NCBI GenBank assembly: GCA_903905065.1
Contig: CAIVEW010000009.1
Location: forward strand, 1-64,000
DNA length: 64,000 nucleotides
Reading direction: 5' to 3'
Source of the DNA: an uncultured Bacteroidota bacterium
GTDB taxonomy: Bacteria; Bacteroidota; Bacteroidia; Chitinophagales; Chitinophagaceae
Position 1 is the first letter of the stretch, and the number at the start of each line of letters is the position of its first letter. Of the stretch, positions 19,967 to 49,994 are shown piece by piece. The notes beneath the pieces are model-generated. The model searched no databases, was not told where the DNA came from, and saw nothing but the letters and a program-made list of their open reading frames with translations. Both the position numbers and the translations under genes were made by a program.

Positions 19967-19999
19967 CCCAAGAAACGCGTAGTACATAAAGTCGGTAGG

Positions 20000-21031
20000 A
20001 TGAAAAAGGCAGTATGGTTATTTATAGTTGTTTTTATTGTTTGCAGCCATGTTGCTGTTGGGCAGAGTATTCATTTCAGCCAGTATTATAATGCGCCGCT
20101 GCTGCTGAATGCAGCAAATACGGCCCTTTTGCCGGGTGATGATTACCAGGTGGGCGCTAATTACCGCACGCAGTGGTCATCGGTGCCTGTGCCGTATAAA
20201 ACTTTTGCTGCTTTTGCTGATTGTAAAGTGGGTGGCAATCGCGAAAATGTAAACCACAATAACTGGCTTGGACTTGGCCTCGTATTTTTCGATGATAAGG
20301 CGGGTGATGGTAATCTTTCGCTATTACAGGTGCAAGGGGATTTGGCATATCATTTACGTCTCAGTGAGTTTACGATGATATCCCTTGGGCTTTCCGGGGC
20401 CACGATACAGCGGAGTGTAAACTACGACAACCTTATCTTTGACCAGCAGTGGGATGGAGTTGAGTTCAATCCACATCTGGCCAACGGCGAAAAAGTGGGC
20501 ATTATCAAAACCAGTTATTACACGATAGGCGCGGGCGGCAACGTTACAATCTTCCCTAACGAGAACCTTTACATAAAACTGGGAGGCGGTGCCACTAACA
20601 TTAATACGCCAACCGAGAGCTTTTATAAAAGCAGCAATGTGGTAGGTTTGCGGCCCACCGGCAATCTTGATGTGATATTCAAAACGGGGCCGTCATTATT
20701 AATAAACCCATCTGTTTACTATACTACGCAAACAGGTGCATCTGAGCTTGTTGCCGGCGCGCAGTTCAGGATAAAACTCAGCAGTGACAACAGTTCACCT
20801 ACTGAGCTGATATTAGGTGCATATGACAGATTGGCTGATGCAATTATCGGTGTAGTAGGTGTGAAAATAAGCGGTGTGCAATTTACGGCCAGTTACGACA
20901 TGACGACATCGGCACTTGCCCCATATAATTCCGCTTATGGTGCGCTTGAGTTTTCTATCATTTATCAAAGTCCTTATGGTAGGAATAAGGACAGGATATC
21001 CAAGCAATTCAGTTGTCCCAGGTTCTTTTAA
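20000..21031 (+). CDS. PorP/SprF family type IX secretion membrane protein
   Basis: 343 aa. Signal peptide ends V-A-V-G-Q. The mature start S-I-H-F-S-Q-Y-Y-N-A-P-L-L-L-N-A-A-N-T is the hallmark of PorP/SprF. The rest is an amphipathic beta-barrel (Y-R-T-Q-W-S-S-V-P-V-P-Y-K-T). SprF-type proteins are outer-membrane partners needed to place particular type B cargo on the cell surface. The 33-base gap and shared orientation with the type B protein upstream make a cargo/anchor operon very likely. The last residues (S-C-P-R-F-F) end just before the response-regulator promoter. Confidence 0.92.
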   Translation: MKKAVWLFIVVFIVCSHVAVGQSIHFSQYYNAPLLLNAANTALLPGDDYQVGANYRTQWSSVPVPYKTFAAFADCKVGGNRENVNHNNWLGLGLVFFDDKAGDGNLSLLQVQGDLAYHLRLSEFTMISLGLSGATIQRSVNYDNLIFDQQWDGVEFNPHLANGEKVGIIKTSYYTIGAGGNVTIFPNENLYIKLGGGATNINTPTESFYKSSNVVGLRPTGNLDVIFKTGPSLLINPSVYYTTQTGASELVAGAQFRIKLSSDNSSPTELILGAYDRLADAIIGVVGVKISGVQFTASYDMTTSALAPYNSAYGALEFSIIYQSPYGRNKDRISKQFSCPRFF

Positions 21032-29602: not shown

Positions 29603-30835
29603 ATGGGGCGATTTACCGGGCTTATCGGCATTGTATTGATACTGGGTATCGCATTTCTTTTTTCCAATAACAAAAAACGTATCAATATCAGGCTGGTGCT
29701 GAGTGGGTTGGCATTGCAGTTGAGTATTGCGTTGCTTGTTCTGAAAGTGCCGGCCGTAAATCACTTTTTCCAGATGCTGGGCAAGGGCATGCAAAAACTG
29801 GAAGGGTTCGCAAAAGAGGGCGCCAGTTTTGTATACGGCGGTATCGGCACTTTTGGCCCCGGTGGTTTAATAGTCAACTATGGAGTCTCCCCAACATTTG
29901 TATTCGCGTTCAATATCACGGCCACTATTATTCTTGTATGTGTGCTCGTAGCTATCCTCTACCATTTAAGGATAATGCAATTTTTAGTGTCTATGGTAGC
30001 GCGTGCCATGAACTTTGTGATGCGGGTAAGCGGCGCCGAGGCATTGAGCAATGTAGCGAGTGCCTTCGTGGGCCAGGTGGAAGCGCAGGTGATGATCAGG
30101 GCATACTTGCCTACCATGACCAAAAGTGAGTTGCTGGCTTCTATGAGCGGCAGCCTGGCCTGCATAGCCGGAGGAATTCTTATTGTGTATGCCAATATGG
30201 GTGCGCGGCCGGATTACCTGATCGCGGCGAGTCTGATGGCGGCGCCGGGGGCTTTGGTCATCTCTAAGATCGTTTTCCCGGAAACCGAAGAGTCGAATAC
30301 GATGGGCAAAGTGAAACTGGATGTGAAAAGTGACTACGCCAACCTTGTTGACGCCATCACCCACGGCGCTGCAGATGGGTTTAAGATTGCCATGAACGTA
30401 ATCGCCATGCTGATAGGTTTTATAGCACTGATAGCCATGGTAAACTGGATGCTGGGGCATATTCACAGCGGGCTTTCGCTCGATTTCATTTTCGGCAAAT
30501 TGTTTTATCCCTTTGCCTGGGCCATGGGTGTGCCTCAGCAGGATATACATAATGCGGCTACTTTACTTGGGCAGAAACTTACCGTGAACGAATTTGTAGC
30601 GTTTAAGAGCCTTACCACAAATTCTGTGCCTATGGTGACGCCGAAAGGATTAACGATCATTACCGTGGCGATTTGCGGCTTTGCCAATTTCAGCAGCGTA
30701 GGAATGCAGATAGGCGGCATCGGGGCGTTAGCTCCTACGCGCCGCCACGACCTTGCCAAACTAGGGATGAGAGCATTGCTTTGTGGTACACTGGCCTCAT
30801 ACCTCTCCGCTACCATCGCGGGTATGCTTGTGTAA
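29603..30835 (+). CDS. Concentrative nucleoside transporter, NupC family
   Basis: 410 aa with about ten hydrophobic segments, inner membrane. Typical CNT signatures are present: F-V-G-Q-V-E-A-Q-V-M-I-R, G-S-L-A-C-I-A-G-G-I-L and the C-terminal N-S-V-P-M-V-T-P, A-N-F-S-S-V-G-M-Q-I-G-G-I-G. The N-terminal half is loosely hydrophobic (I-R-L-V-L-S-G-L-A-L-Q). It imports nucleosides with H+ or Na+. The operon with cdd gives the substrate context (cytidine, uridine). Confidence 0.94.
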   Translation: MGRFTGLIGIVLILGIAFLFSNNKKRINIRLVLSGLALQLSIALLVLKVPAVNHFFQMLGKGMQKLEGFAKEGASFVYGGIGTFGPGGLIVNYGVSPTFVFAFNITATIILVCVLVAILYHLRIMQFLVSMVARAMNFVMRVSGAEALSNVASAFVGQVEAQVMIRAYLPTMTKSELLASMSGSLACIAGGILIVYANMGARPDYLIAASLMAAPGALVISKIVFPETEESNTMGKVKLDVKSDYANLVDAITHGAADGFKIAMNVIAMLIGFIALIAMVNWMLGHIHSGLSLDFIFGKLFYPFAWAMGVPQQDIHNAATLLGQKLTVNEFVAFKSLTTNSVPMVTPKGLTIITVAICGFANFSSVGMQIGGIGALAPTRRHDLAKLGMRALLCGTLASYLSATIAGMLV

Positions 30836-30969: not shown

Positions 30970-33900
30970 ATGCTGCTATTTGTACGAAGGAAGTCATTAC
31001 TGGTTATTTTATTAATAAATAATTTTATACTTCTTTCGTTTTCAGGCGGCAGAGTTTATGCGCAATCGTTCACGGCAGGCAACCTGGCGATACTGCGGGT
31101 TGGGGATGGCGTGACTGGCCTGGTAAGTTCGGCACAGCCCTTAACAGTGGTGGAGTATACTACTTCGGGGGTCGCGACGGGAGTTACCGTTGCACTTCCG
31201 AGTTCCGGAGCAGGACCATACGTTACCAATAGTGGCAGCGCAACTTCTGAGGGGCAAATGACCATGTCGGCGGAAAGAGACCGGTTGGTAGTGGTTGGTT
31301 ATAATGCGGCACCGGGTACTGCCAATGTTGCGACTTCGCTTTCCTCCACTTATAACCGGGAGTTGTTTACCATAAATTCGGGAGCGGTAAGCACAAATGC
31401 TGCGTCCACTACACTATACTCCGGAAATAATATCCGGTCTGGAACTGCGTCGGGGACAAATTATTTTGGCGGGGGACCTGCAAACGGTATATCTGACCTG
31501 AATACCAACACAATGCTGACTGCGGCTTTGGTTAACACACGTGTCGTTCAAATATTTAACGGACAAACTTATATCTCATCAGGTAGCGGGACATTTCTTG
31601 GTGTTAATAGTCTCGGAACTGGCATCCCCACAACTTGCTGCCAGGCCACGTCGCTGCTTAACACGCCTAATTCGGGCAGTGCGTACGGATTTTCATTCAG
31701 CCCTGATGGTAATACATTGTATATAGCGGATGATGGATTATCGGGAGGCACTCCGGGTATCAGCAAGTATACAAAAAGCGGTGCCACTTATACGCTTGCG
31801 TACGTCGTCAATACAACTACCAGCAGAAGTATTGCGGTAGATTATTCAGGAGCAAATCCGATCATTTACGCTACTACAGCCAGCAGCACAGCTCCGAATT
31901 CCATTATCAAGATCACGGATGTGGGTGCAGGGTCGGCATCAACTATTTTGGTGGCATCGTCGCCCGCAAATACGGTATTCCGGAGTCTAACTTTTGTCCC
32001 GTACTGCGGTGCATCAATATCGTTGATAGGCGCGTCAACCGTTTGCAGCGGCACTAACCCGCGAATTGTAATCAAAGGTAATCCTACCGGCGCTGTCACG
32101 TACAATATTAACGGAGTTACCACATATACCACAACGATAGGCCCAAATGGTTTCGATACCGTAAGCATAGGGCCGATAACTGCGAATACAACTGTCAACC
32201 TGGTGAGCATTAACACCCAGGCTTGTTCGTCGGTTCCAATTACCGGCAGTGTGACAGTCAACGTATTTCCTGCTGCTACATTTGCTTCCATTAGTACGGA
32301 TGGCCCGTTATGTGCGGGCTTCGATCTGCACCTGAATGCTGCTATTACGGCCTCTGCAAGCCCGTATACCTATACATGGAGTGGCCCTGCTTATTCATCA
32401 GGCACGATATCGTCGGCACTGCTTACAAGTTCAGTTACCGTAACGTCGATACCCGCGCTACCTGCTAATCCCGTCTATACGCTTACGGTAACAGATGGCA
32501 ATAGCTGTGCTATTTCTACAACGGTTACAACAACCGTAAATCCTTTGCCCATAGCCTACACCGTCTTTGGTTCCGGCAGTTATTGCGTTGGCGGAACAGG
32601 GATTGACGTGCAATTGAATAATTCTCAGACCGGCGTCAACTACCAACTATACAATACCACCGGGCCTGTCGGCAGTGTGATGCCGGGCACAACAGGGTCA
32701 TCTGTAAATTTTGGTAACTGGCCGGCGGGTACCTATACTGTATCGGCAAGTAACCCTGCAACCGGCTGTAATAATGGTATGGTGGGCTCTGCGGCTATAA
32801 CCGTGAACCCGCTGCCTGCAGTGATCACAGGGTCGATGACGGTTTGCCCGGGTACTACCACTGCGTTGACTGATGCCGGCGGCGGGACTTGGAGTTCTGC
32901 GTCACCCGGAAATGCAAGCGTTGGATCGACTGGGATCGTAACCGGAATTACCGGCAATACTACAGCCATCATAACCTATACGCTCCCCACTACCTGTTAT
33001 ATTACGGCCACGGTCAGCGTGAACCCATTGCCATTAACGATCACCGGCGGCAATGCTGTGTGTATGGGCTCGTCCCTTGCTCTTTCTGATGCAACGGGTG
33101 GTGGCACCTGGATCAGCAGTAATACCGGGGTTGCTACGATAGGATCGGGTAGTGGTGCGGTTACGCCCGTTTCCCAGGGAACAACCACGATCAGTTATGT
33201 GCTCCCTACAGGCTGTATGGTCAATGCGGTGATCACAGTCAACCCATTGCCAGCAGCGATCACGGGAACTATGAATGTATGCGCCGGATCGAATATTACA
33301 CTCAGTGATGCGGTTGGGGGTACATGGAGCAGCAGCAATACGGGCACTGCTACTGTAGGTTTACTTTCCGGTATCGTAAACGGTGTTGCCGCGGGTACGA
33401 CAAACATTACCTATACACTGCCAACAACCTGCCTGATCTCTACACCGATAACGGTAAACCCCTTGCCTACGAGCATTCTCGGAAATCCTTCGGTTTGCGT
33501 TGGGTATACAACATCTTTGAGTGATCTTACGACGGGCGGGACCTGGAGTTCGGGTGCGCCCGGGCTGGCGACTGTGGGCTCTTCGGGTCTTGTAACAGGC
33601 CTTTTCACAGGAACTGCAAACATATCTTATACCATATCTTCCACCGGCTGCTATTTATTTGACAATGTTACCGTCAATCCACTGCCGGTGACGATCAGTG
33701 GCCCATCCACCGTTTGTGCAGGATCTGTTACCGTTTATACCGATATTTCTACCGGCGGCACCTGGAGCAGCAGTAACACAGGCGTGGCTAATATTGGCGT
33801 CGGCACCGGATCACTCACAGCCATCATGGCGGGGACAACCGTAATTACTTATACGATCGGCACAGGGTGTACAACATCCTCTGTGATTACCGTCGATCCA

Positions 33901-36900
33901 TTGCCAGCAGCGATCACGGGAACAATGAGCGTTTGCCAGGGATTGTCAACCGGCCTTACCGATGGTACCGGCGGCGGCACATGGAGCAGCAGCGCAGCCG
34001 CTTTCGGTACCGTAGATGCGACTGGAAATGTTACCGGAATTTCCGCCGGGGCATTTTACATCTCTTATACGCTGCCCACCACCTGTTTCACAACTACTTC
34101 ATTCACGGTCAACCCTTTGCCTGGCCCGATAAACGGCCCGTCCAATATTTGCGCAGGTTCATCTGTGGGATTAACCGATGCAGTTGGCGGCGGCACCTGG
34201 GTAAGCAGCAGCCCCAGCTTTGTTTCCATCAACGCGGCGTCCGGCTTTACATCTGGGATCATGGGGGGGACAACGGTGATCACATACACGCTACCTACTG
34301 GTTGCCTTGTCACTAAAGGAATCACTGTAAATCCGCTGCCCTCGGCCATTACCGGTACGGGAAATGTGTGTGTGGGATCAACAGTTTCACTGAGCGATCT
34401 TACCACCGGTGGTGCCTGGAGCAGCAGCAATACTTCGTACGCCACAGTTGATGCAACGACCGGAGTCGTAACGGGAACTGGTGCGGGAATTCCACACATT
34501 ACCTATACACTGCCGTCATCCTGCTACACCACGTTTATTCTAACCGTCAACCCGTTGCCATTAGCAGTGTCTGGTAACCTGGCCATTTGCCTGGGCGGCA
34601 CCTCCTCTTTGAGCGACAGCCCTACCGGCGGCACATGGATCAGCAATGCTCCGGCGACGGCTGACATCGGCTTAAGTAGCGGCTTGGTTACCACAACCGC
34701 TGTTGGTACGGCAACGATCACTTATACCAGTCCGGCTGGGTGTGTGAATAGCGCAGTTGTTACGGTGAATCCCCTCCCACCGGCTATTACCGGGACGCTT
34801 GATGTTTGTCCAGGTACAACAACGATTTTGACGGACGTTATTTCCGGTGGGACATGGAGTTCTGTAACACCGGGGCTCGCCACAGTAGCGGTAAGCGGGG
34901 TAGTGACAGGGGTTGCAGCAGGAATGGCGACCATCTCATATTTACCGGCAACGGGCTGCGGCACATTTGCTATGGTAACGGTGAATCCTCTGCCGGCAGC
35001 CATTGCGGGCAACCTGGCTGTTTGTAACGGATTGACATCTGCGCTAAGCGATGTCGTTACCGGTGGTACATGGAGCAGCAGTACAGCGGGTATTGCTTCC
35101 ATATCTTCAACCGGGCTGGTGAGTGGTGTATCGCTTGGTACGGCCATTATTACCTATACACTACCCACAGGTTGCTATATCACCGCGACGGTCACCGTCT
35201 ATCCGGTCCCGGGAGCGATATCGGGAACAGCGTCCGTCTGCCCGGGAACAACAACAAGTTTGAGCGACCTGCCCGCCGGGGGAACCTGGAGTTCCGCGTC
35301 TCCCGGTATTGCCACTGCAGGCTCAGCCTCCGGAATCGTTACAGGCGTAGCTGCGGGTACAACAAATCTCACATACACGGTTGCGGGTGGTTGCACTGCC
35401 GTTGCTGTTGTGACTGTAAATCCACTTCCGGCGTTGATATCGGGTAATGTTCATGCCTGCCTTGGTCTTACGACATCATTAAGTGACGCCGTTGGCGGTG
35501 GCACGTGGAGCAGCTCTTCAGCCACTACAGCTTCTATCGATATGGTTACGGGATTAGTAACAGGTAACGCTGCGGGAAGTGCAACCATAACTTATACCTT
35601 GCCTACCGGCTGTGTCAGAACAACAATCGTTACGGTTGATACTTTGCCGCAACCAATATCGCTCAACACACCAGTATGTGTCGGGTCGTCAATTGTTTTA
35701 AGTGATGCAGGTGGCGGCACGTGGGCCAGCGGCAATCTTCCTGTTGCGGCCATTACATTCGGAGGCGGAACGGTTATCGGCATCTCGGCTGGTACAGCGG
35801 TCATCACTTATACCTTGCCGTCAACGTGCGTGATAACAACTATTGTCACTGTGAACCCGGTGCCATCTCCAATAGCCGGGGCGTCGCAAGTATGTGGTGG
35901 CCTCACGATCACATTAACCGACGCTACTGCAGGCGGTTCATGGATCAGCAGTAACCCAGCTATTGCTACTATAGGTTCGGCTACCGGGGTTGTAACCGGC
36001 GTGTCTACGGGCAACACATTGATCACTTACACAGCTTCCGTTACAGGCTGCCGTGCAACGACAACGGTTTCCGTTATTGCATTGCCGCCGGCCATTACCG
36101 GTACAACCGTTGTTTGTGCAACATTAACTACGGCGCTTAACATAGCTGTTTCGGACGGTACCTGGAGTTCGGGTGCTCCGGCCATTGCAACTGTAGGTTC
36201 TACCGGAATAGTCACAGGTGTAGCAGCAGGAACTGCTAACATAACTTATACGGCGACCAGCGGATGTTTCTCCACTACGGTTGTCACCGTAAATCCCCTG
36301 CCAGTTGCTATCAGTGGCACGACTGCGATCTGCTACGGGCTGACCACTACTGTGAGTGATTTATCCGCCGGCGGTACCTGGCTCAGCGGAAATACTGCTG
36401 TCGCAACGATAGGCACTTCCGGGCTGGTTACTTCGGTTTCCGTGGGCACGGCCAATATAACCTATACGCTGCCAACGGGCTGTCTTACCGCGCGTACGGT
36501 TTCCGTAAACCCCTTACCGGGCGCTATATCGGGCGCACTTTACCTTTGTGTGGGTGCAGATGGCACCTTAACGGACGGCGCTGCAGGCGGATTCTGGAGC
36601 ATAGATGCCCCCGCATCCGGCATTGCTTCCGTATTCGGTCCTACGGGGGATGTTTCGGCACTTTCCGCCGGCACAGCCACCGTTACTTACACTTTGCCTA
36701 CCGGTTGCACTACGACAGCGGTAATTACCGTCAACCCTGTTCCGCTTGCCATCACCGGTGCTACGAACGTCTGCGTTGGCTCAAGCACAACATTAACTGA
36801 TGCGACAGCCGCAGGTACATGGACCAGCAGCAGCACCGTACAAGCAACAATAACTGCAGGTGGCGGGACGGCGTCTGGCATATCACAGGGCGTGGTTGTT

Positions 36901-38958
36901 ATCACCTACAAGCTATCTACGGGCTGCTTTACTACTACGGTATTTACAGTAAACCCTTTGCCGGCGGCCATTGCAGGCAACAGGAGTATTTGCCTGGGTA
37001 CGGCGACCACTTTGAGTGATGCCTCGTCGGGTGGTACCTGGAGCATCGGTCATCCTGACAGTATTGGTATAGTCTCCGGTATTGCGACAGGAGACAGTTT
37101 AGGAGTAGACACGGTTACTTATACATTGCCCACCGGATGTTTGATCACTTCAGTCATTACCGTTAACCCTTTCCCAACTGCTATCCTGGGAGATACATTG
37201 GGCATATGCCAGGGATATAATATTTTATTGAGCGATAGTACTCCGGGCGGTGCGTGGAGATCTATCAACCCCGCCGTTGCAACGATTAATACTTCGGGCA
37301 TCGTGGCGGGTTTATCGGCAGGTACGGCTAATATCTCCTACACACTGCCTACCGGCTGCGGAGTAACAGCGATTGTGACCGTAAATCCGCTTTTCCCGAT
37401 ATCCGGAAATACAAACATTTGCCTGGGCATGACAGATTTTTTAAGTGACCTGGCAGCTGGCGGTACCTGGAGCAGCGGTTCACCACTGGTAGCCACGGTA
37501 GGCAGCGCAACAGGTGTCGTGTCTGGTGTATCTTCCGGAGCCGCGTATATCAGCTACCACCTCGTTACCGGTTGTGTTGCTGCAATTGTAGTAACCGTGA
37601 ACGATCTGCCTTCTTTATACGTCGTTACGGGTGGCGGCAGTTATTGCGCCGGTGGGGCAGGTGTGAATATTGGTCTTAATGGCTCGGATATCGGTATTAG
37701 TTACCAGTTACAGCAATCGGGTTCGGTCCTTGACACACTTCCCGGCTCTGGCGTGTCCCTTGACTTCGGCTCATTTACGGTTGCCGGTGGCTATACTGTC
37801 CTTGCTACAGATTCCATCACCGGATGCTCCGCAACCATGACAGGTAGCGCTACCGTGATAGTTAACCCCATAGTTGCTCCATTTGTAAGTATAGGCACCA
37901 GCAGCGGAACAACTATATGTGTTGGAACGGTAGCTGATTTCACCGCAGCAGCGGTCAATGGAGGCAGTGCACCGTTGTATCAATGGTCGGTGAATGGTAT
38001 TCCGGCTGGCTCAGGTCCAGAATATAGTTATGTGCCGCTGAATGGAGATATTGTATCCGTCGATCTTATCAGTAATGCACCTTGCGCCATCACATATTCA
38101 GCGACCGCGTCTGTGACAATGACAACAGTAAACGGGATCATGCCGTCCGTAAGTCTGTCAGTAAGCCCGGGAGATTCCGTTTGTCCCGGCACGCCTGTAG
38201 CCGTGATTGCGTCGACTTCGACCGGAGGGAGCTCGCCGACATTTGAGTGGATAAAGAATGGAATAAATGTTGGCTCAGGCCTTACTTATACTTTTCTGCC
38301 AGTCGACGGGGATAATGTCTTTTGCTGGATGCACAGCACGCTGACCTGTGCACTTGCAGATACAGTGCATAGCGATAACAACATAAATATGCGCGTACCA
38401 CCGATCTATCTGCCGGACGTCACCCTAGCGGCCTATCCGGGCACACGGATAGAATCGGGAGATACAGTGACATTAGTTGCTTCGGTAACCTTCAGTGGAT
38501 TGTCCTTTTCCTACCAATGGAAAATAAATAATTTTGCGGTACCCGGCGCTACGACGGATACATTTAAGAGCAATTTATTTAATAACCTGGATGTGGTGAG
38601 CTGCGATGTCACCGGTATCAGCCTTTGTGGCATGGCGTCAAGATCGGCACAGGTACTGATCGTAGACACCATAGCGACTGGAATAAATGGGGTGGAGGCG
38701 TCTATTTCTGATGTAGAACTTGTTCCAAACCCGAACAACGGGACGTTCACTATTAAAGGCACAATTGGCACGATTAATGATGTATCAGTGGTTGTTACAG
38801 ACATGGTAGGCCAAATCGTGTATAAGAGCCGTGTGCCTGTTAACAGTGGAAAAATAAACCAGGAAATAAGGCTCGGCAACATCGCAAACGGCATGTATTT
38901 ATTGGAGATCACCACCGGGGCTGTTAATAAATTTCTTTATTTTGCAGTAGGGCAGTAG
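30970..38958 (+). CDS. Giant T9SS type A surface protein with 22 Ig-like repeats
   Basis: 2662 aa. Signal peptide to about residue 32 (G-G-R-V-Y-A-Q). Head (33-452) resembles a beta-propeller-like stretch (F-S-P-D-G-N-T-L-Y-I-A-D-D-G), unlike the paralogue. A shared bridge (453-613) contains L-H-L-N-A-A-I-T and Y-C-V-G-G-T-G-I-D-V-Q-L. Residues 614-2211 hold 22 consecutive units of about 73 aa, each P-L-P-x-x-I-x-G ... V-C-x-G ... L-S-D ... G-G-T-W-S-S ... G-I-V-T-G-V ... I-T-Y-T-L-P-T-G-C. The C-terminal 451 residues carry more Ig-like domains and the type A sorting signal (V-P-N-P-N-N-G-T-F-T-I, G-M-Y-L-L-E-I). A cell-surface or released adhesin-like filament is inferred. Confidence 0.93.
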   Translation: MLLFVRRKSLLVILLINNFILLSFSGGRVYAQSFTAGNLAILRVGDGVTGLVSSAQPLTVVEYTTSGVATGVTVALPSSGAGPYVTNSGSATSEGQMTMSAERDRLVVVGYNAAPGTANVATSLSSTYNRELFTINSGAVSTNAASTTLYSGNNIRSGTASGTNYFGGGPANGISDLNTNTMLTAALVNTRVVQIFNGQTYISSGSGTFLGVNSLGTGIPTTCCQATSLLNTPNSGSAYGFSFSPDGNTLYIADDGLSGGTPGISKYTKSGATYTLAYVVNTTTSRSIAVDYSGANPIIYATTASSTAPNSIIKITDVGAGSASTILVASSPANTVFRSLTFVPYCGASISLIGASTVCSGTNPRIVIKGNPTGAVTYNINGVTTYTTTIGPNGFDTVSIGPITANTTVNLVSINTQACSSVPITGSVTVNVFPAATFASISTDGPLCAGFDLHLNAAITASASPYTYTWSGPAYSSGTISSALLTSSVTVTSIPALPANPVYTLTVTDGNSCAISTTVTTTVNPLPIAYTVFGSGSYCVGGTGIDVQLNNSQTGVNYQLYNTTGPVGSVMPGTTGSSVNFGNWPAGTYTVSASNPATGCNNGMVGSAAITVNPLPAVITGSMTVCPGTTTALTDAGGGTWSSASPGNASVGSTGIVTGITGNTTAIITYTLPTTCYITATVSVNPLPLTITGGNAVCMGSSLALSDATGGGTWISSNTGVATIGSGSGAVTPVSQGTTTISYVLPTGCMVNAVITVNPLPAAITGTMNVCAGSNITLSDAVGGTWSSSNTGTATVGLLSGIVNGVAAGTTNITYTLPTTCLISTPITVNPLPTSILGNPSVCVGYTTSLSDLTTGGTWSSGAPGLATVGSSGLVTGLFTGTANISYTISSTGCYLFDNVTVNPLPVTISGPSTVCAGSVTVYTDISTGGTWSSSNTGVANIGVGTGSLTAIMAGTTVITYTIGTGCTTSSVITVDPLPAAITGTMSVCQGLSTGLTDGTGGGTWSSSAAAFGTVDATGNVTGISAGAFYISYTLPTTCFTTTSFTVNPLPGPINGPSNICAGSSVGLTDAVGGGTWVSSSPSFVSINAASGFTSGIMGGTTVITYTLPTGCLVTKGITVNPLPSAITGTGNVCVGSTVSLSDLTTGGAWSSSNTSYATVDATTGVVTGTGAGIPHITYTLPSSCYTTFILTVNPLPLAVSGNLAICLGGTSSLSDSPTGGTWISNAPATADIGLSSGLVTTTAVGTATITYTSPAGCVNSAVVTVNPLPPAITGTLDVCPGTTTILTDVISGGTWSSVTPGLATVAVSGVVTGVAAGMATISYLPATGCGTFAMVTVNPLPAAIAGNLAVCNGLTSALSDVVTGGTWSSSTAGIASISSTGLVSGVSLGTAIITYTLPTGCYITATVTVYPVPGAISGTASVCPGTTTSLSDLPAGGTWSSASPGIATAGSASGIVTGVAAGTTNLTYTVAGGCTAVAVVTVNPLPALISGNVHACLGLTTSLSDAVGGGTWSSSSATTASIDMVTGLVTGNAAGSATITYTLPTGCVRTTIVTVDTLPQPISLNTPVCVGSSIVLSDAGGGTWASGNLPVAAITFGGGTVIGISAGTAVITYTLPSTCVITTIVTVNPVPSPIAGASQVCGGLTITLTDATAGGSWISSNPAIATIGSATGVVTGVSTGNTLITYTASVTGCRATTTVSVIALPPAITGTTVVCATLTTALNIAVSDGTWSSGAPAIATVGSTGIVTGVAAGTANITYTATSGCFSTTVVTVNPLPVAISGTTAICYGLTTTVSDLSAGGTWLSGNTAVATIGTSGLVTSVSVGTANITYTLPTGCLTARTVSVNPLPGAISGALYLCVGADGTLTDGAAGGFWSIDAPASGIASVFGPTGDVSALSAGTATVTYTLPTGCTTTAVITVNPVPLAITGATNVCVGSSTTLTDATAAGTWTSSSTVQATITAGGGTASGISQGVVVITYKLSTGCFTTTVFTVNPLPAAIAGNRSICLGTATTLSDASSGGTWSIGHPDSIGIVSGIATGDSLGVDTVTYTLPTGCLITSVITVNPFPTAILGDTLGICQGYNILLSDSTPGGAWRSINPAVATINTSGIVAGLSAGTANISYTLPTGCGVTAIVTVNPLFPISGNTNICLGMTDFLSDLAAGGTWSSGSPLVATVGSATGVVSGVSSGAAYISYHLVTGCVAAIVVTVNDLPSLYVVTGGGSYCAGGAGVNIGLNGSDIGISYQLQQSGSVLDTLPGSGVSLDFGSFTVAGGYTVLATDSITGCSATMTGSATVIVNPIVAPFVSIGTSSGTTICVGTVADFTAAAVNGGSAPLYQWSVNGIPAGSGPEYSYVPLNGDIVSVDLISNAPCAITYSATASVTMTTVNGIMPSVSLSVSPGDSVCPGTPVAVIASTSTGGSSPTFEWIKNGINVGSGLTYTFLPVDGDNVFCWMHSTLTCALADTVHSDNNINMRVPPIYLPDVTLAAYPGTRIESGDTVTLVASVTFSGLSFSYQWKINNFAVPGATTDTFKSNLFNNLDVVSCDVTGISLCGMASRSAQVLIVDTIATGINGVEASISDVELVPNPNNGTFTIKGTIGTINDVSVVVTDMVGQIVYKSRVPVNSGKINQEIRLGNIANGMYLLEITTGAVNKFLYFAVGQ
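32809..37602 (+). repeat. 22-copy repeat array in giant protein 1
   Basis: 4794 bases, mean unit about 218 bases (72.6 codons), reading frame kept throughout. The protein motif is conserved while the codons for identical motifs (e.g. Y-T-L-P-T-G-C) vary from copy to copy, so the array is not a recent amplification. Confidence 0.9.
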
Positions 38959-38996
38959 CAGTGTATAATAAATGGGCATTTTGATAATCCGGTACT

Positions 38997-41900
38997 ATGA
39001 AGCGCGCAGTAATTTTTACTTATAATATTTTTATTATTATCTTACTTAGTCTGCTGGCTAACGTTTTTGTAGTCAATGGGTCATTTGCACAATGTTCAAC
39101 TACGGCGGCACCGGTTTTCTCGGGCACTTGTTCTTCCGAATATTTTGCCTCACTTACGGCGTCTGGGTCATATGTGGCTTCAAGTGTCAATGTCAGCAAT
39201 TCATCCTGTACGGTAACATATATAAATAATTTTACGACGCAAGGCATTCAGGCTCCGCTTGGAGGTACTGTTAACCTGAATGTTACAAGGGCTGCCGGCA
39301 GTACTTTTACCGGTTATCTTTCCGTATATGTGGACTGGAATAATGACGGTATTTATGAAACCACGGAACTTGCGGGCGCGACATATACATTTGCGGCCCT
39401 GGCTGCAACGACCGTATATAGTTTTACGATACCAACGACCGGAGTAGTTACAGGAACAAACCTGCACATGCGGATATGCCTTGGAGAGGGATTGGGTTTG
39501 GCTCCGTGTACCGAGACTTACGGGCAATTTGTAGAGGTTTATTTAAACCTGGTTTGCAGTACCGCACCTACGATCACCGCTACGCCAGCCACTGGCAGCT
39601 ATTGTACCGGAGGGCAGGGTGTAACGATCACCGGGTCTGGTGCTGGAACAGGCGCCACGGTTTATACCTGGGCTCCGGCTACCGGCCTGTCGGCAAGCAC
39701 AGGCGCTGCAGTTATCGCTTCACCTGCAGCTACCACAGTTTATACTGTTACCGGGATCTCCGCACTCGGTTGTTCAAATACAGCAACTTCCACTATCACT
39801 GTTTATTCTGTCGCTCCGACGATATCTTCTGCCGGTGCCGTTGAATCTTCTTTATGTGCTGGCACCGCGCTGCACCTGAATGCTGCAATTACTTCATCGG
39901 CGTCGCCATATACTTATGTGTGGACGGGCCCGGGGAGTTATACGCACTCTACAACAACTTTTGCTTTTACTAATTCTGTGACGGTTACCTCGATCCCGGT
40001 ATCGCCCACAAATCCTGTTTATACGGTTACTGTTACTGATGGGCATCACTGTATGGTCTCCGCTACGGCTACGACAACGGTGGATCCGTTACCGACGGCA
40101 TACAACGTATACGGGAATGGCGTTTATTGTGTCGGAACGGCCGGTATTGATGTGCAGCTGGCGGGTTCTGAACCTGGCGTCAATTACCAGCTTTATTCCG
40201 GCAGCACAGCAGTGGGTGGCATCATTACAGGTACCGGCGGTTCACTGGACTTTGGCAACTACCTCGCAGGTAGCTACTCTGTTTCGGGGGTTTATTCTGT
40301 TACGGGCTGCTCTGTTGGCATGACGGGCAACGCTACCATTGGTGCGGTTTCCCCCCCGCCCGCTATTACAGGGTCCATGACGGTTTGCTCCGGGCTCACG
40401 ACGACGCTAAGTGATGCAGCCGCAGGCGGTACCTGGAGCATTTCCGGAAGTTCTATAGCAATCGTTGATGCCAGTGGGGTTGTGACCGGTGTGGCGGCGG
40501 GAAACGTGATTATTACCTATACATCCGGTGGCTGCTTGACAAGTGCTATTGTGACGGTATATCCGCTAGGGCCAATAACAGGTGGCGCCGGCCCTTGTGC
40601 GGGTTCAAGTGAGTTTTTAAGTGACCTTGCATCCGGCGGTGCCTGGTCCAGCAGCATCCCCGGGGTTGCCAATATCAATGCCAGTGGGTTGCTTAATGCG
40701 ATCATGGCGGGCAACACCACCATAACTTACCTTATGCCCACCGGCTGCATGGCCACACTGCCTGTAACCGTAAATCCACTACCTCCTGCTATAACTGGAA
40801 CAGTCGCTGTGTGCCCCCTATCATCCGGTACACTAAGCGACCCGTCACCCGGCGGGACATGGAGCAGCAACAACATAGGGATTGCAGTGGTGGGGTCTGG
40901 TACAGGAGTGGTTACCGGAGTGGCTCCGGGCACAGCAACTATTACCTACACCCTGCCAACAGGCTGTGTTACTACAGCCCCGGCTACCGTTTTTACGCCT
41001 CCGCCAGCGATACTCCAGTTTTCCGGCCTTTGCCTGGGTTATAATGTTTCGCTCAGCGACGCCGTACCGGGTGGTACGTGGAGCAGCAGTACGCCAGGCA
41101 CGGCCAGTGTTGGGTCTGCTGGTGTGGTCTCCGGGAATGCGATAGGAACATCAACGATCACCTACACCGCGCCTCTCACAGGGTGCATGACCGCACATAT
41201 TGTTACGGTTGAACCATTGCCGTCTGTCATTACAGGCCCGCTCACTATCTGCCAGGGCCCGTCAGTTACACTAAGTGACGCCACATTCGGTGGAATATGG
41301 ACGTGCAGCACTCCGTCTGTTGCAACTGTTAATCCGTCGACAGGACTTGTTACCGGGGTGTCGGCGGGCGTCGCAATGATAACTTACACTGTAAACACAG
41401 GTTGTATACAAACAGCAGGAGTAACGGTGAATCCATTGCCTATGCCAATCGTGGGGAATGACAATGTTTGTGTTGGCTCAACAATCGGATTAGTTAACTC
41501 AAGTGACGGCGTTGGAACATGGAGCAGCAGTGCGCCGGGCATTGCTTCGATAGGAAGCAGTTCGGGAGTTGTCAGCGGCTTAGCGGCAGGCACAGCAGTA
41601 ATTACTTTTACGTTGTCAACCGGCTGTTTTGTTACAATGCCTGTGACCGTCAATCCGCTGCCAACGGCTATTTCAGGGAATACACCAGTGTGTGCCGGGG
41701 CAAATATTACATTATCCGGGGCTCCAACCGGAGGTAGCTGGTCGTCTGGCGGAGTTGGTGTTGCGACAGTTGGCTTAAGTTCGGGCAACGTTGTTGGTGT
41801 CACTGCAGGAACTGTCGCCATCACCTATATGTTATCTACGGGATGCCCGCTTTCCACCGTGGTAACGGTTAACTCTTCACCCGCCGGCATCTCCGGCACT

Positions 41901-44900
41901 ACCAATATTTGTCTTGGTTTAACAAGTAGTTTGAGCGATGCCACTACGGGGGGCACGTGGTCAAGCTCCTTCGCATTCGTAGCGTCCGTCGGAAGTTCGG
42001 GACTTGTGACCGGAAACGCTATTGGCACGGCTACTATTACTTATGCCTTGCCTACAGGTTGTGTCGCTACCGCTACTACGGCCGTGTATCCGCCCCCTTC
42101 GCCTATTACAGGGGTTCTGAGTGTTTGTTCCGGTTCTACGACAAGTTTATCAGATGCGGGCGGCGGCACCTGGAATTCCGGTGCAACGACCATAGCTTCT
42201 ATAGCTGCGGCTGCAGGTATCGTTACCGGCAACGCTGCAGGTACAGCAACTATTACTTACACATTGCCCACTGGTTGTACTACTACTGCAGTCGTAACCG
42301 TGAACCCATTACCTCTGGCAATATCCGGCATTACGAATGTTTGCGCTGGTTTGACAGTCACGTTCAGTGACGCGTCTGCCGGTGGATCATGGAGTAGTGG
42401 CAACCCTTCCGTGGCTACGATTGGCTCCGGTACCGGCCTTGTAACAGGTGTATTTACCGGCACTGCTGCCATAAGTTATAAACTTGCCACCGGGTGTATC
42501 AGCACTGCAGTTGTTACTGTTGAACCGTTGCCGTCTGCAATAACGGGTATTACACACGTATGCGCTGGTTTAACCACTTTATTGACCGACGTAATTGCAG
42601 GGGGTACGTGGAGTTCTGACGCACCGGGCATTGCGGGCATCGGCGGTACTGGTATTGTAACGGGTATTACTGCAGGGTCTGCAAATATTACCTATACAGT
42701 GGCTGGTGGTTGTATCGCCACTACAACCGTTACTGTTAATCCGTTACCCGCCGTGGTCAACGGAACGATGGGCATCTGTGCGGGATCGACGACTACGTTA
42801 AGTAACGTTTCAGCCGGTGGTACGTGGTATAGCAGCAATACGTTCGTTGCCAGTATTGGCACAGGTGGGCTAGTTACTGCTTTGTCGGCAGGTGTATCCG
42901 GGATCACTTATACGTTGCCAACAGGTTGCCTGTCTTCAGTTACCATTACTGTAAATCCACTGCCATTAGCCATATCCGGCCCAATGCAATTGTGTGTTGG
43001 TGCTGACGTAAGCCTCTCGGACGCCAATGCAGGCGGACTGTGGAGCGTTAATGCTTCTGCGTCGGGAATAGCGGCTATCTTTCCTTCATCCGGTGATGTA
43101 TCGGGCCTTGGTGCAGGCACGGCCACCGTTACGTATCGACTACCAACCGGATGTATTACAACATCAATTATTACGGTAGATCCGCTGCCCGCAGCCATTA
43201 CCGGCAGTACAAGCCTGTGTGTAGGGGCGGGTACAACGCTCTCAGATGCCAGCACCGGAGGCACCTGGAGCAGTAGTAATACGGCGCAAGCTACGATCAC
43301 TACAGGTAGTGGAACGGTATCGGGCATTTCCCAGGGTATTCTGGTTATCACGTACCAACTGCCTACGGGTTGCATGACCACCATTGCGTTTACGGTGAAC
43401 CCGCTGCCGGCAGCAATAGCAGGCAACAGAAGCATTTGCCTGGGCGTTACTTCTGCGCTTAGCGATGCATCCACAGGGGGTACCTGGAGCTTGTATCCTT
43501 CTTCACGCGATAGTATCGGCACTGGCTCCGGCATTGTGACGGCCGATTCTTTTGGTCTCGCAACGGTAACCTATACCTTGCCGACAGGTTGTTTAATTAC
43601 GGCGGCCATTACCGTCAATCCTCTTCCCTCGGCCATTCTTGCAGATGCTTACCCTATATGCCAGGGCTTTGATATTACGCTTAGCGACAGTACGCCTGGA
43701 GGTGCCTGGAGTAGTGCGAATACAGGTATCGCTACAGTCATAACAAGTACGGGTGTTGTTGCAGGTGTTTCGGCGGGCACGGTTGATATTTCTTATACAC
43801 TTTCCACAGGTTGCGGCGTGGCAGCTGTTGTTACCGTGAACCCTTTATTTCCCATCGCTGGCAACCGGGATATTTGCCTCGGCGTTCCAGCTACGTTGAG
43901 TGACCTCGCCACTGGTGGTTCCTGGAGTAGCGGGTCTTCGTCGGTCGCTTCAATAAACAGCATTAGCGGTATCGTGACCGGCGTCACATCGGGTTCTACA
44001 TACATCAGCTACCACCTTAGCACAGGTTGCGTAGCCACCACGATCATCACCGTGAATCCCTTGCCTGCTTCTTACAATGTTACGGGTGGCGGTAGCTTCT
44101 GCGCTGGCGGAACAGGAGTGGATGTCGGGCTCAATGGCTCACAAGACGGCGTCGATTACCAATTGATATATTCAGGCTCCGCGATTGGCAGTTTCCCCGG
44201 ATCGGGCTCTGCCATTGACTTTGGCTCATTTACGTTTGCCGGTGGCTATACGGTACTGGCTACCGATTCAGCTACAGGCTGTTCCGCAACGATGACTGGT
44301 AGCGCGACGGTAACCGTTAACCCGACAGTGGCACCGTTTGTGAGTATTGGCGCAAGTGGCGGCACAACTGTATGTGTTGGAACAATTGCTGATTTCACAG
44401 CTACAGCGATCAATGGCGGCAGTGCACCGTTATTTGAGTGGTCGGTGAATGGTATCGCTGCAGGCTCGGGCGCAGACTTTAGCTATGTACCTCTAAACGG
44501 TGATGTTGTATCGGTTGAACTCATCAGCAATGCTGCCTGTGCCAATCCTGATTCAGCAGCCGCGGCTGTAACGATGACAACGGTTAACGGGATAATGCCA
44601 TCGGTGAGTATATCGGTAAGCCCGGGAGATTCGGTGTGTCCAGGTACTCCGGTAACAGTAACACCATCGAGCTCAACCGGCGGTACTTCACCGACGTTCG
44701 AGTGGATGAAGAATGGGGTAAATGTTGGATCTGGTCTTACCTATACCTTCCTGCCTATTGATGGGGATAATATCTTTTGCATAATGCACAGTACCCTTAC
44801 ATGTGCTTTAGTGGATACGGTGCCGAGCATCAATAACATTAATATGCACGTGCCACCCATTTTTGTGCCTGATGTAACGATAGCAGCTTACCCCGGTACA

Positions 44901-45416
44901 CGAATAGAACCGGGCGAATTAGTAACCCTGGTTGCTTCAGTAACCTTCAACGGATTATCTTTTTCGTACCAATGGGATATAAACAATATGCCGGTGGCGG
45001 GAGCGACAACAGACACGTTCAGGAGCAGTTCGTTGAATAACATGGACGTGGTAAGCTGCGTGATAACCGGCACCAGTGTTTGCGGTGTTGCCAGCAGGTC
45101 GGCACAGGTGCTGATCGTGGATACTATTGCTACGGGTGTGCAGGAATTGCAACCTTTTATTGCCTGTGTCAGGCTCATCCCGAATCCGAACAACGGTGCG
45201 TTTACAATCAGTGGTACGATTCCGCAATCCGATGAAATAAAATTGTTGATAACGGATATGCTGGGGCAGATAGTCTATTCAAGGAATGTACGCGTGTTAA
45301 ATGGCACAATAAACGAACAAGTGCAGTTAAGTGGCATGCTGGCCAACGGTATGTATACATTGGAACTTCGTTCTGGAACGACAAATAAGGTGGTTCACTT
45401 CGTGGTCGGACAATAA
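38997..45416 (+). CDS. Giant T9SS type A surface protein with GEVED head and 17 Ig-like repeats
   Basis: 2139 aa, starting 38 bases after the first giant gene. Signal peptide to about residue 32 (G-S-F-A-Q). Head (33-291) contains a GEVED domain (Y-V-D-W-N-N-D-G-I-Y, A-C and M-R-I-C-L-G-E-G) and a short Ig-like part (W-A-P-A-T-G-L-S-A-S). A bridge (292-452) is shared with its neighbour. Residues 453-1687 are 17 units of about 73 aa of the same type as in protein 1. The C-terminal 452 residues align along their length with the neighbour's last 451 and end in the type A sorting domain (I-P-N-P-N-N-G-A-F-T-I). No catalytic motif is seen. Confidence 0.93.
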   Translation: MKRAVIFTYNIFIIILLSLLANVFVVNGSFAQCSTTAAPVFSGTCSSEYFASLTASGSYVASSVNVSNSSCTVTYINNFTTQGIQAPLGGTVNLNVTRAAGSTFTGYLSVYVDWNNDGIYETTELAGATYTFAALAATTVYSFTIPTTGVVTGTNLHMRICLGEGLGLAPCTETYGQFVEVYLNLVCSTAPTITATPATGSYCTGGQGVTITGSGAGTGATVYTWAPATGLSASTGAAVIASPAATTVYTVTGISALGCSNTATSTITVYSVAPTISSAGAVESSLCAGTALHLNAAITSSASPYTYVWTGPGSYTHSTTTFAFTNSVTVTSIPVSPTNPVYTVTVTDGHHCMVSATATTTVDPLPTAYNVYGNGVYCVGTAGIDVQLAGSEPGVNYQLYSGSTAVGGIITGTGGSLDFGNYLAGSYSVSGVYSVTGCSVGMTGNATIGAVSPPPAITGSMTVCSGLTTTLSDAAAGGTWSISGSSIAIVDASGVVTGVAAGNVIITYTSGGCLTSAIVTVYPLGPITGGAGPCAGSSEFLSDLASGGAWSSSIPGVANINASGLLNAIMAGNTTITYLMPTGCMATLPVTVNPLPPAITGTVAVCPLSSGTLSDPSPGGTWSSNNIGIAVVGSGTGVVTGVAPGTATITYTLPTGCVTTAPATVFTPPPAILQFSGLCLGYNVSLSDAVPGGTWSSSTPGTASVGSAGVVSGNAIGTSTITYTAPLTGCMTAHIVTVEPLPSVITGPLTICQGPSVTLSDATFGGIWTCSTPSVATVNPSTGLVTGVSAGVAMITYTVNTGCIQTAGVTVNPLPMPIVGNDNVCVGSTIGLVNSSDGVGTWSSSAPGIASIGSSSGVVSGLAAGTAVITFTLSTGCFVTMPVTVNPLPTAISGNTPVCAGANITLSGAPTGGSWSSGGVGVATVGLSSGNVVGVTAGTVAITYMLSTGCPLSTVVTVNSSPAGISGTTNICLGLTSSLSDATTGGTWSSSFAFVASVGSSGLVTGNAIGTATITYALPTGCVATATTAVYPPPSPITGVLSVCSGSTTSLSDAGGGTWNSGATTIASIAAAAGIVTGNAAGTATITYTLPTGCTTTAVVTVNPLPLAISGITNVCAGLTVTFSDASAGGSWSSGNPSVATIGSGTGLVTGVFTGTAAISYKLATGCISTAVVTVEPLPSAITGITHVCAGLTTLLTDVIAGGTWSSDAPGIAGIGGTGIVTGITAGSANITYTVAGGCIATTTVTVNPLPAVVNGTMGICAGSTTTLSNVSAGGTWYSSNTFVASIGTGGLVTALSAGVSGITYTLPTGCLSSVTITVNPLPLAISGPMQLCVGADVSLSDANAGGLWSVNASASGIAAIFPSSGDVSGLGAGTATVTYRLPTGCITTSIITVDPLPAAITGSTSLCVGAGTTLSDASTGGTWSSSNTAQATITTGSGTVSGISQGILVITYQLPTGCMTTIAFTVNPLPAAIAGNRSICLGVTSALSDASTGGTWSLYPSSRDSIGTGSGIVTADSFGLATVTYTLPTGCLITAAITVNPLPSAILADAYPICQGFDITLSDSTPGGAWSSANTGIATVITSTGVVAGVSAGTVDISYTLSTGCGVAAVVTVNPLFPIAGNRDICLGVPATLSDLATGGSWSSGSSSVASINSISGIVTGVTSGSTYISYHLSTGCVATTIITVNPLPASYNVTGGGSFCAGGTGVDVGLNGSQDGVDYQLIYSGSAIGSFPGSGSAIDFGSFTFAGGYTVLATDSATGCSATMTGSATVTVNPTVAPFVSIGASGGTTVCVGTIADFTATAINGGSAPLFEWSVNGIAAGSGADFSYVPLNGDVVSVELISNAACANPDSAAAAVTMTTVNGIMPSVSISVSPGDSVCPGTPVTVTPSSSTGGTSPTFEWMKNGVNVGSGLTYTFLPIDGDNIFCIMHSTLTCALVDTVPSINNINMHVPPIFVPDVTIAAYPGTRIEPGELVTLVASVTFNGLSFSYQWDINNMPVAGATTDTFRSSSLNNMDVVSCVITGTSVCGVASRSAQVLIVDTIATGVQELQPFIACVRLIPNPNNGAFTISGTIPQSDEIKLLITDMLGQIVYSRNVRVLNGTINEQVQLSGMLANGMYTLELRSGTTNKVVHFVVGQ
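40353..44057 (+). repeat. 17-copy repeat array in giant protein 2
   Basis: 3705 bases, mean unit about 218 bases, in frame. Copies 13-17 match copies 18-22 of the upstream array in order (markers: L-C-V-G-A-D, then S-S-N-T/S-T-V-Q-A-T-I-T, then I-A-G-N-R-S-I-C-L-G, then I-L-x-D-x-x-x-I-C-Q-G, then P-L-F-P-I-x-G-N). Confidence 0.9.
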
Positions 45417-49121: not shown

Positions 49122-49274
49122 ATCAGTGCAGTTGTTATGCGTATCTAGTACGTTTGCAAAGAAAAGACACATACATTACCCCAATATTATGGTAGTGTAA
49201 ACAAGCCCTGTGTCCGTATTATTATTATGTTATTTTTGTATTATCCCGCCCGAATTAAGGTGTATTGGATACCG

Positions 49275-49994
49275 CTACTGTATCCATCTATTGAGGTCTG
49301 AAAGCACGTCCCGGCTTATCGTATGACCCATTCCCGGGTAGGAGTGAAATTCGGGTTTCAGGCCCAGCGTTTTGAGATAGTCAGCGGCTTCCTTTCCGTC
49401 TGAAAATAAGATACGCTCATCTGCTTCTCCATGGGATACGAATATCCGTAGTTGCTTTAGCGGTGTAGTCTTTTTCACCATCGTCTTTAGGGAAGGGTAG
49501 ATGGTACCGCTGAGCACACCAATGCCTTTTAGCAGCGCGGGATTGGTGAGCCCAACCCGGTAACTCATTATGGCACCTTGGCTAAAGCCCATAAGATAAA
49601 CCCGGGCAGGATCGGCATGGTACGCAGCCACAACCTGTTTCACAAACTTTTCGATGAGTTTTTTGCTGTTGGCGAGTTGCGCGGCATTGCCATCATGTAC
49701 ACCATTCACCTCGGTCATTTCATACCACTCATATCCACCACCGGGCAGTGGATAGGGTGCGCGTGCAGAAACGATAAGATAGTTTTTTGGCAGAAAAGTG
49801 CGCAGCGCAAACAGGTCGTTTTCATCACTGCCATAGCCATGCAGCAAAATGATCAGGGGCGGATGCGCTGACTTTTCGCCGGGCATTTCTACCAGGTATT
49901 TCAATGCAAGGCCCTCCTGCAATGGCATTCCCTGCGCCGATGCATTAAGGTAAAAGGCAAATGTCAGCAGTAAAACGGACAGTATCTTTTTCAT
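49275..49994 (-). CDS. Phospholipase/carboxylesterase-like alpha/beta hydrolase
   Basis: 239 aa with a signal peptide (residues 1-20), so periplasmic or secreted. Catalytic triad: Ser138 in G-F-S-Q-G, Asp192 in H-G-E-A-D-E-R-I, His224 in G-M-G-H-T. The oxyanion stretch is L-L-H-G-Y-G-S-D-E. This is the phospholipase/carboxylesterase (Abhydrolase_2) type. It hydrolyses an ester substrate that cannot be named. Transcribed in the same direction as the lipid A genes on its upstream side, with only 25 bases to the acyltransferase, so the three may form an operon. Confidence 0.9.
   Translation of the reverse strand: MKKILSVLLLTFAFYLNASAQGMPLQEGLALKYLVEMPGEKSAHPPLIILLHGYGSDENDLFALRTFLPKNYLIVSARAPYPLPGGGYEWYEMTEVNGVHDGNAAQLANSKKLIEKFVKQVVAAYHADPARVYLMGFSQGAIMSYRVGLTNPALLKGIGVLSGTIYPSLKTMVKKTTPLKQLRIFVSHGEADERILFSDGKEAADYLKTLGLKPEFHSYPGMGHTISRDVLSDLNRWIQ

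Follow-up and report, generated by a model that had tools for sequence, protein, structure and literature searches.

The window analysed here, a stretch of 64,000 nt from the draft genome of an uncultured Bacteroidota bacterium (G000; 4.68 Mb, 113 contigs, 3.05% contamination), carries two consecutive giant genes whose products, P1 and P2, share a bridge, a colinear array of repeat units and a tail with the sorting domain of the type IX secretion system (T9SS), and differ in their heads and by five units in the length of the array. The original prediction, drawn from this DNA alone, interpreted the pair as a duplication followed by change of unit number and of head. Comparison with other genomes (G001, G004, G005, G007, G010, G013, and G016; fetched stretches are denoted by L-numbers) points to another history, to which we assign a probability of roughly 0.75: judged from the sequences, P1 and P2 would be old paralogous stalks of immunoglobulin (Ig)-like domains, each of fixed length, that were brought side by side and whose tails were homogenised by gene conversion. 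The observations that carry this reading are the unit counts, the colinearity of the arrays, the conflict between bridge and tail trees, the synteny of the locus, and a conversion tract. What stands of the original prediction is the paralogy of the two genes, their colinear arrays, the five-unit difference, and the difference between the heads; what falls is a recent duplication with continuing change.

Both open reading frames (ORFs) lie on the same strand with 38 bp between them and encode giant T9SS type A proteins: P1 of 2662 aa with 22 Big_2-like units (30970..38958, +) and P2 of 2139 aa with 17 units (38997..45416, +). ORFs and counts agree with those predicted, the latter being recovered by a profile made from the units, which measure about 73 aa in both arrays. 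By the unit boundaries used, the bridge is 162 aa long in either protein (32329..32814 and 39870..40355, both +; 59% identity), the tail that follows the array measures 448 aa (P1) and 449 aa (P2; 71% identity overall, 58–81% in segments), and the arrays themselves (32815..37611 and 40356..44066, both +) differ in length by 362 aa; the earlier values of 161, 451 or 452, and 363 aa depart from these only through the position at which the units were cut. The heads are unrelated. N-terminus and head of P1 take up about 453 aa (30970..32328, +), with a PD40 (WD40-like) match just under the cut-off and a head profile matching WD40 proteins, best over one short stretch, while the P2 head of about 291 aa carries a GEVED domain (39315..39527, +). 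The latter domain is also found in the head of the G004 orthologue of P2, and the domain search gave no GEVED match in the P2 orthologues of G001 and G016. P2-type heads in L049 and L050 are about 160 aa shorter than those of G000 and G004 and have no GEVED match, so that the domain was gained or lost within the P2-type group. Both proteins score above the cut-offs for the C-terminal sorting domain PF18962 (42.9 bits in P1 at 38725..38922, + and 35.4 bits in P2 at 45180..45407, +; cut-off 27), for TIGR04183 (29.6 and 29.0; cut-off 23), and for PF02368 (Big_2; 169.5 and 159.9 bits, cut-off 22.8, with 10 and 8 stretches, respectively, each passing alone). A hydrophobic stretch is visible in the translations at both N-termini, and two fixed Cys positions are both filled in 39 of the 39 units.

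Common descent of the arrays can be read from the order of their units. Aligned pairwise, a check named in the original prediction, the two proteins match along their flanks, and BLASTP gives 62% identity across 1693 columns. In an all-versus-all comparison of units, likeness follows the diagonal on which P1 unit i corresponds to P2 unit i−5, a diagonal reached in none of 10,000 shuffles of P2 unit order; the two arrays therefore descend from one array, and the proposed difference of five units is borne out. Restricted to P1 units 6–12 against P2 units 1–7, with orthologues pooled, the same likeness is reached by 17 of 10,000 shuffles, and by 14 and 42 of 10,000 when two groups of P1 are taken apart. 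The diagonal is strong at P1 units 18–22 (62–72% identity, against a mean of 49% for all cross pairs), and these units together with the tail (36517..38955, +) are the part of P1 most like P2; before unit 18 it is weak, yet present along the P2 array. Alignment at offset 0 from the side of the bridge was rejected, its mean being near zero. The best site for the gap is the end of the bridge, with a gap one or two units later scoring almost equally, and in view of this alignment P1 units 1–5 (32815..33903, +) are likely the extra units and the best candidates for the five without P2 counterpart. Their origin as one clean copy of an adjacent five-unit block was rejected, since likeness in the self-comparison is scattered, being strongest between P1-type units 5 and 7 and next between units 9 and 13.

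If the number of units were still changing, the counts should differ among close relatives, and this part of the original prediction is largely contradicted by them. With P1-type defined as a P1 head at ≥68% identity plus a colinear array, all three complete P1-type genes found (G000, G004, and G013) hold 22 units and all four P2-type genes (G000, G004, G001, and G016) hold 17, in both cases across species; two more P1-type genes are incomplete, that of G016 being split across two contigs and that of G005 represented by its head only. The identity of individual units is kept as well: the best match lies at the same index for 22 of 22 units of P1 and 17 of 17 units of P2 in G004, for 17 of 17 units of P2 in G001 and 15 of 17 in G016, and for 12 of the 22 units of P1 in the more distant P1-type gene of G013. 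The genomes are far apart: over the last seven units and tail, only 52% and 45% of third codon positions are the same where G000 and G004 share the residue. Equal numbers are found in seven of seven G000/G004 pairs that are reciprocal-best by head and tail, as counted among fetched members with at least five units (22, 17, 42, 47, 12, 14, and 5), the fetched members being a selection from the family steered by the tail search. The units themselves are diverged, with a median nearest-unit DNA identity of 60.3% in P1 (maximum 64.4%) and 59.4% in P2 (maximum 61.1%), and the longest exact repeat inside either gene is 26 bp. A maximum unit identity of 64% and the lack of exact repeats above 26 bp leave little visible substrate for length switching, and the units of P1 and P2 would offer poor ground for slippage or intragenic recombination. 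The five-unit difference thus looks old and then frozen, and length looks fixed rather than variable among close orthologues. Of the combined outcome that the original prediction had named as contrary to it, identical unit numbers in related genomes are found among the close orthologues, while independent ancestry of the two genes is not.

Trees made from different parts of the proteins conflict and expose P1 as a mosaic. From the bridge and units 6–12, the P1s of G000, G004, and G013 group together against the four P2s (100/100), and joining the P1s with the P2s is rejected in all four approximately unbiased (AU) tests (p ≤3.7e-7). In the tail tree (32 rows, two of them one gene, with the full G016 tail), P1 and its G004 orthologue are nested in a five-row clade (100/100) whose other members are the P2 tails of G000, G004, and G001, nearest to the P2 of G004 (100/96), and G013 and G016 have P1-type tails that pair with each other (100/99) outside the P2-containing clade; a single clade of P1-type tails was rejected by the AU test at p 0.005 (LG) and 0.033 (C20). 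Unit by unit, the G013 unit of the same index is the best or near-best match by identity for most of P1 units 2–14, and P2 in register is the best match for P1 units 15–19 and 22. Derivation of P1 units 13–17 from P2 was also considered and rejected, as the tree of these units does not bear it out. A conversion tract is seen in G004, where the P1 and P2 tails share 92% of nucleotides and 81% of third positions over 60 codons, including an identical run of 110 nt, whereas over the same tract the orthologous P1 genes of G000 and G004 share 76% and, in the part compared, no identical run above 25 nt; tail conversion between the neighbours therefore went on later in G004. In G000 the likeness of the two tails is milder (74–79% over part of the tail, no identical run above 20 nt). 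Taken together, these patterns indicate that part of the likeness between P1 and P2 tails comes from later tail conversion, and exchange in register from the tail side would leave 22 units in place, as observed.

The genomic position of the two genes differs between relatives. In G000, P1 and P2 lie between a Na+-dependent nucleoside transporter on the left (29603..30835, +) and a gene of the phospholipase/carboxylesterase family on the right (49275..49994, −), both conserved at the locus, and G004 has both giant genes beside the same transporter. G001 and G016 have a P2-type gene alone between transporter and esterase, and G013 has neither type there; the P1-type genes of G013 and G016 reside at another locus, common to both. 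A search of 12 genomes recovered the transporter in 8, with an 18-unit family member adjoining it in the opposite direction in G010 and no family member adjoining it in G007. A gene like P0003, the neighbour of the P1-type gene in G013 and G016, is present in G000, G004, and G001 (55–57% identity), and no full P1-type gene was found beside it in these three genomes, its place there not being certain to be the same locus as in G013 and G016. A relative of this nuclease-like P0003 gene with an internal stop was noted in G016 (G016:C104:4752-5783, L117). Around the 38-bp gap between P1 and P2, two promoter-like matches against 0.9 expected are uninformative, and a terminator scan found none; P1 and P2 are likely to be placed on one transcript. 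Adjoining P2, the window encodes an 899-aa CHU_C protein (46473-49172) with a G004 counterpart at 91% identity; the compared stretches of G001 and G016 contain no match, and the G013 stretch has none flagged; L087 of the same genome encodes a 953-aa relative (54%). Farther to the left, a PKD-containing protein of 1191 aa with a CHU_C T9SS signal is followed by a PorP/SprF gene (16391-21031).

The history that we favour for this locus may be outlined as follows. P1 and P2 would be members of a genus-wide family of surface rods built on a common plan—an N-terminal signal, an exchangeable head, a bridge, a Big_2 stalk, and a common tail with a T9SS sorting domain. Both genes would stem from one old ancestor, with the five-unit difference arising near the bridge, after which the number of units of each gene was kept among close orthologues. 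The P1-type gene, located elsewhere in sister species, would then have come to lie directly before P2 in this lineage, and its tail, probably with the last five units, would have been overwritten in register by P2, leaving 22 units; conversion between the neighbouring tails would have continued, as seen in the sister genome G004. The order of these events and the direction from P2 to P1 are inferred.

A number of observations weigh against this scheme or confine it. The mixture model speaks only modestly (p about 0.03) against a single clade of P1-type tails, and in that test the clades were named after the trees had been seen, with the G016 tail shortened to 373 aa. The P2-type tail of G016 lies outside the five-row clade and is not separated from the P1-type tails of G013 and G016, which makes the direction of conversion uncertain. 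The tree of units 13–17 sets the four P2s apart in a clade (96/99) that excludes the P1s, and in that of units 18–22 the P1s stand beside, not within, the P2s of G000, G004, and G001 (90/95; 84/90 for the group), so that conversion is well supported for the tail only. By identity, too, P1 unit 20 is equally close to the P1 of G013 and to the P2s (64% each) and unit 21 is closer to the former (68% vs. 63%), and units 14, 15, and 17–22 of the P1-type genes of G013 and G016 also match P2 best in register; part of the likeness is therefore old, with any conversion superimposed on it. Next to the P0003-like gene of G001, a protein of 621 aa (L089 10119-11984) matches a piece of the G016 P1-type gene (48% over 152 aa) and may be either a remnant or another family member. 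A fragment of a P1 head stands directly after the transporter in G005, at a contig end, G001 has no P1, and the basal branches of the locus tree are poorly resolved, so the order of gains and losses cannot be set. Finally, P1-like heads at 48–61% identity sit on ORFs that run from 1460 to 5681 aa among those listed above 1000 aa, cut shorter ones apart. L119 has 13 units, and 8 were counted in L120; over longer times, heads, arrays, and tails have therefore been recombined.

Three other explanations of the pair are less probable. Had a recent tandem duplication been followed by a change of five units in either direction and a swap of heads, unit numbers still shifting so as to vary surface length and antigenicity, one would expect the tandem position, the colinear arrays and flanks, and tails 71% identical with segments up to 81%; it would not yield the same two unit numbers in close orthologues of other species, a P1-type gene that lies elsewhere in the genomes of G013 and G016, a bridge and units 6–12 that split P1s from P2s at 100/100, or units whose DNA is at most 64% identical, and we regard it as very improbable. 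A second alternative is the arrival of the P1-type gene by transfer from another species of the genus instead of a move within the genome, with tail conversion afterwards. The different locus in G013 and G016 is compatible with it, and the finding of no full P1-type gene next to the P0003-like genes of G000, G004, and G001 fits loss there as well as foreign origin here. Over the last seven units and tail, the G000 and G004 orthologues share 73% of nucleotides for P1 and 71% for P2, a similar divergence that would place such a transfer before the split of G000 and G004, and nothing points to a donor; transfer is thus an unlikely course, if a considerably better one than recent duplication. An artefact of metagenome assembly, either a collapse of unit numbers or a misjoining of two genes, might be suspected in a draft of 113 contigs with 3.05% contamination, repeats being a known cause of misassembly (PMC6868369). 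Against it stand the shortness of exact repeats within either gene (26 bp at most), the 64% identity of the best unit pair, and the recurrence of the arrangement in G004 and of the counts in G001, G013, and G016, which leave this the least credible of the explanations.

P1 and P2 belong to a large family, in which other members behave differently. The P1 tail has matches in 40 of the 40 genomes searched, with 27 to 96 in each of 25 genomes of this genus, G000 included (counts that take in single tail-type domains), and among 35 genomes of the genus, 17, again with G000 included, encode relatives of the P1 head (≥34% identity). In G000, PF18962 has at least 150 matches (150 of 236 candidates scored). 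Two G000/G004 pairs matched by the tail only differ in unit number (L067/L081, 11 vs. 12; L053/L055, 20 vs. 39). L067 and L081 have tails 84% alike and different heads, the head of L067 pairing with those of the 33-unit members L054 and L052, which makes this pair another mosaic. One group paired by head does change its number: L053 of G000 has 20 units, L057 of G016 has 16, and L070 of G013 has 16, with L053 and L057 pairing by tail as well. The median nearest-unit DNA identity is 67–69% in this group vs. 54.5–63% in the seven pairs of equal number, and the group is a candidate changing array within the same genus. Proteins with glycine-rich heads have 33 (L054), 39 (L055), at least 38 (L071), and 36 (L072) units, L052_17047 and L072_148 being a single gene retrieved as two overlapping stretches; as a variable array this group gives a weak contrast, since its heads and tails pair differently. 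L068 (G000:C95; 2759 aa) and L082 (G004:C37; at least 3193 aa, its frame running off the end of the stretch) hold arrays of another type, whose units of roughly 90 aa are related to the first domain of the tail and fall outside the profile count, and their unit number probably differs between G000 and G004. Still larger ORFs with tail matches are found in G000:C69 (7246 aa) and G004:C33 (10076 aa).

Among described systems, the nearest in architecture are the Periscope Proteins, in which a surface stalk of tandem, mostly Ig-like domains holds an N-terminal head off the cell, and the number of highly identical repeats differs from strain to strain, most strongly at the highest repeat identity (PMC8201768; PMC9704523). 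By their domain order, P1 and P2 have this architecture of tandem-domain stalk and N-terminal head, but their repeat DNA is diverged (64.4% and 61.1% at most), and close orthologues from different species have the same number of units. In the gingipains and HagA of Porphyromonas gingivalis, large Bacteroidota surface proteins compared there between strains of one species, shared domains are rearranged and exchanged by recombination, and a report of variable repeat number in hagA is among the references cited (PMC5266723). In P1 and P2, by contrast, neighbouring tails are converted while unit number holds across species. Consecutive giant genes are also found in Apilactobacillus kunkeei, a Gram-positive bacterium. 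There, Giant1-5 have other folds, and the authors saw no recent gene conversion between them in a strain (PMC12863079), unlike the neighbouring tails of G004, which carry a conversion tract. With both domains over their curated cut-offs, P1 and P2 belong among proteins combining Big_2 (PF02368) with Por_Secre_tail (PF18962), from which they show no difference in kind, and they are not a new system. A few word combinations applied to the open-licence literature gave, among the titles listed, no paper on constant unit numbers together with tail conversion in T9SS stalks.

As to function, the domain content suggests that P1 and P2 are exported by the T9SS and held at the surface, each as an Ig-like stalk carrying its head. 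A profile of three units gave seven weak matches among solved structures (E 2e-5 to 4e-3), including a bglH chain, nucleoporin 210, intimin, and BIG2-type proteins. The paired Cys of the units may form disulphides, and the proteins may serve as stalks of fixed length presenting their heads, for which the architecture suggests an adhesive or scaffold rod role. An Ig-like domain extends about 4 nm, and 22 and 17 units would accordingly reach roughly 90 and 70 nm. It is possible, although we put it forward only tentatively, that stalk length is under strong selection as a fixed ruler, heads being exchanged and tails homogenised with the number of units of a given stalk unmoved, while another stalk in the same genomes, with units more alike, changes its number.

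Tandem surface repeats are often read as switches of length or antigen, and P1 and P2 provide a counter-example to length variation of the Periscope kind, their unit number being kept between species whose third positions agree in only about half of shared residues. The pair also carries a warning that change of copy number is not to be inferred from two paralogues of one genome, the more so where, as proposed here, their relation as neighbours came about through relocation and tail conversion. The family lets constant and changing arrays be compared side by side, and if the reading of stalk length as a fixed ruler is true, it would constitute a natural experiment on the determinants of stable repeat numbers.

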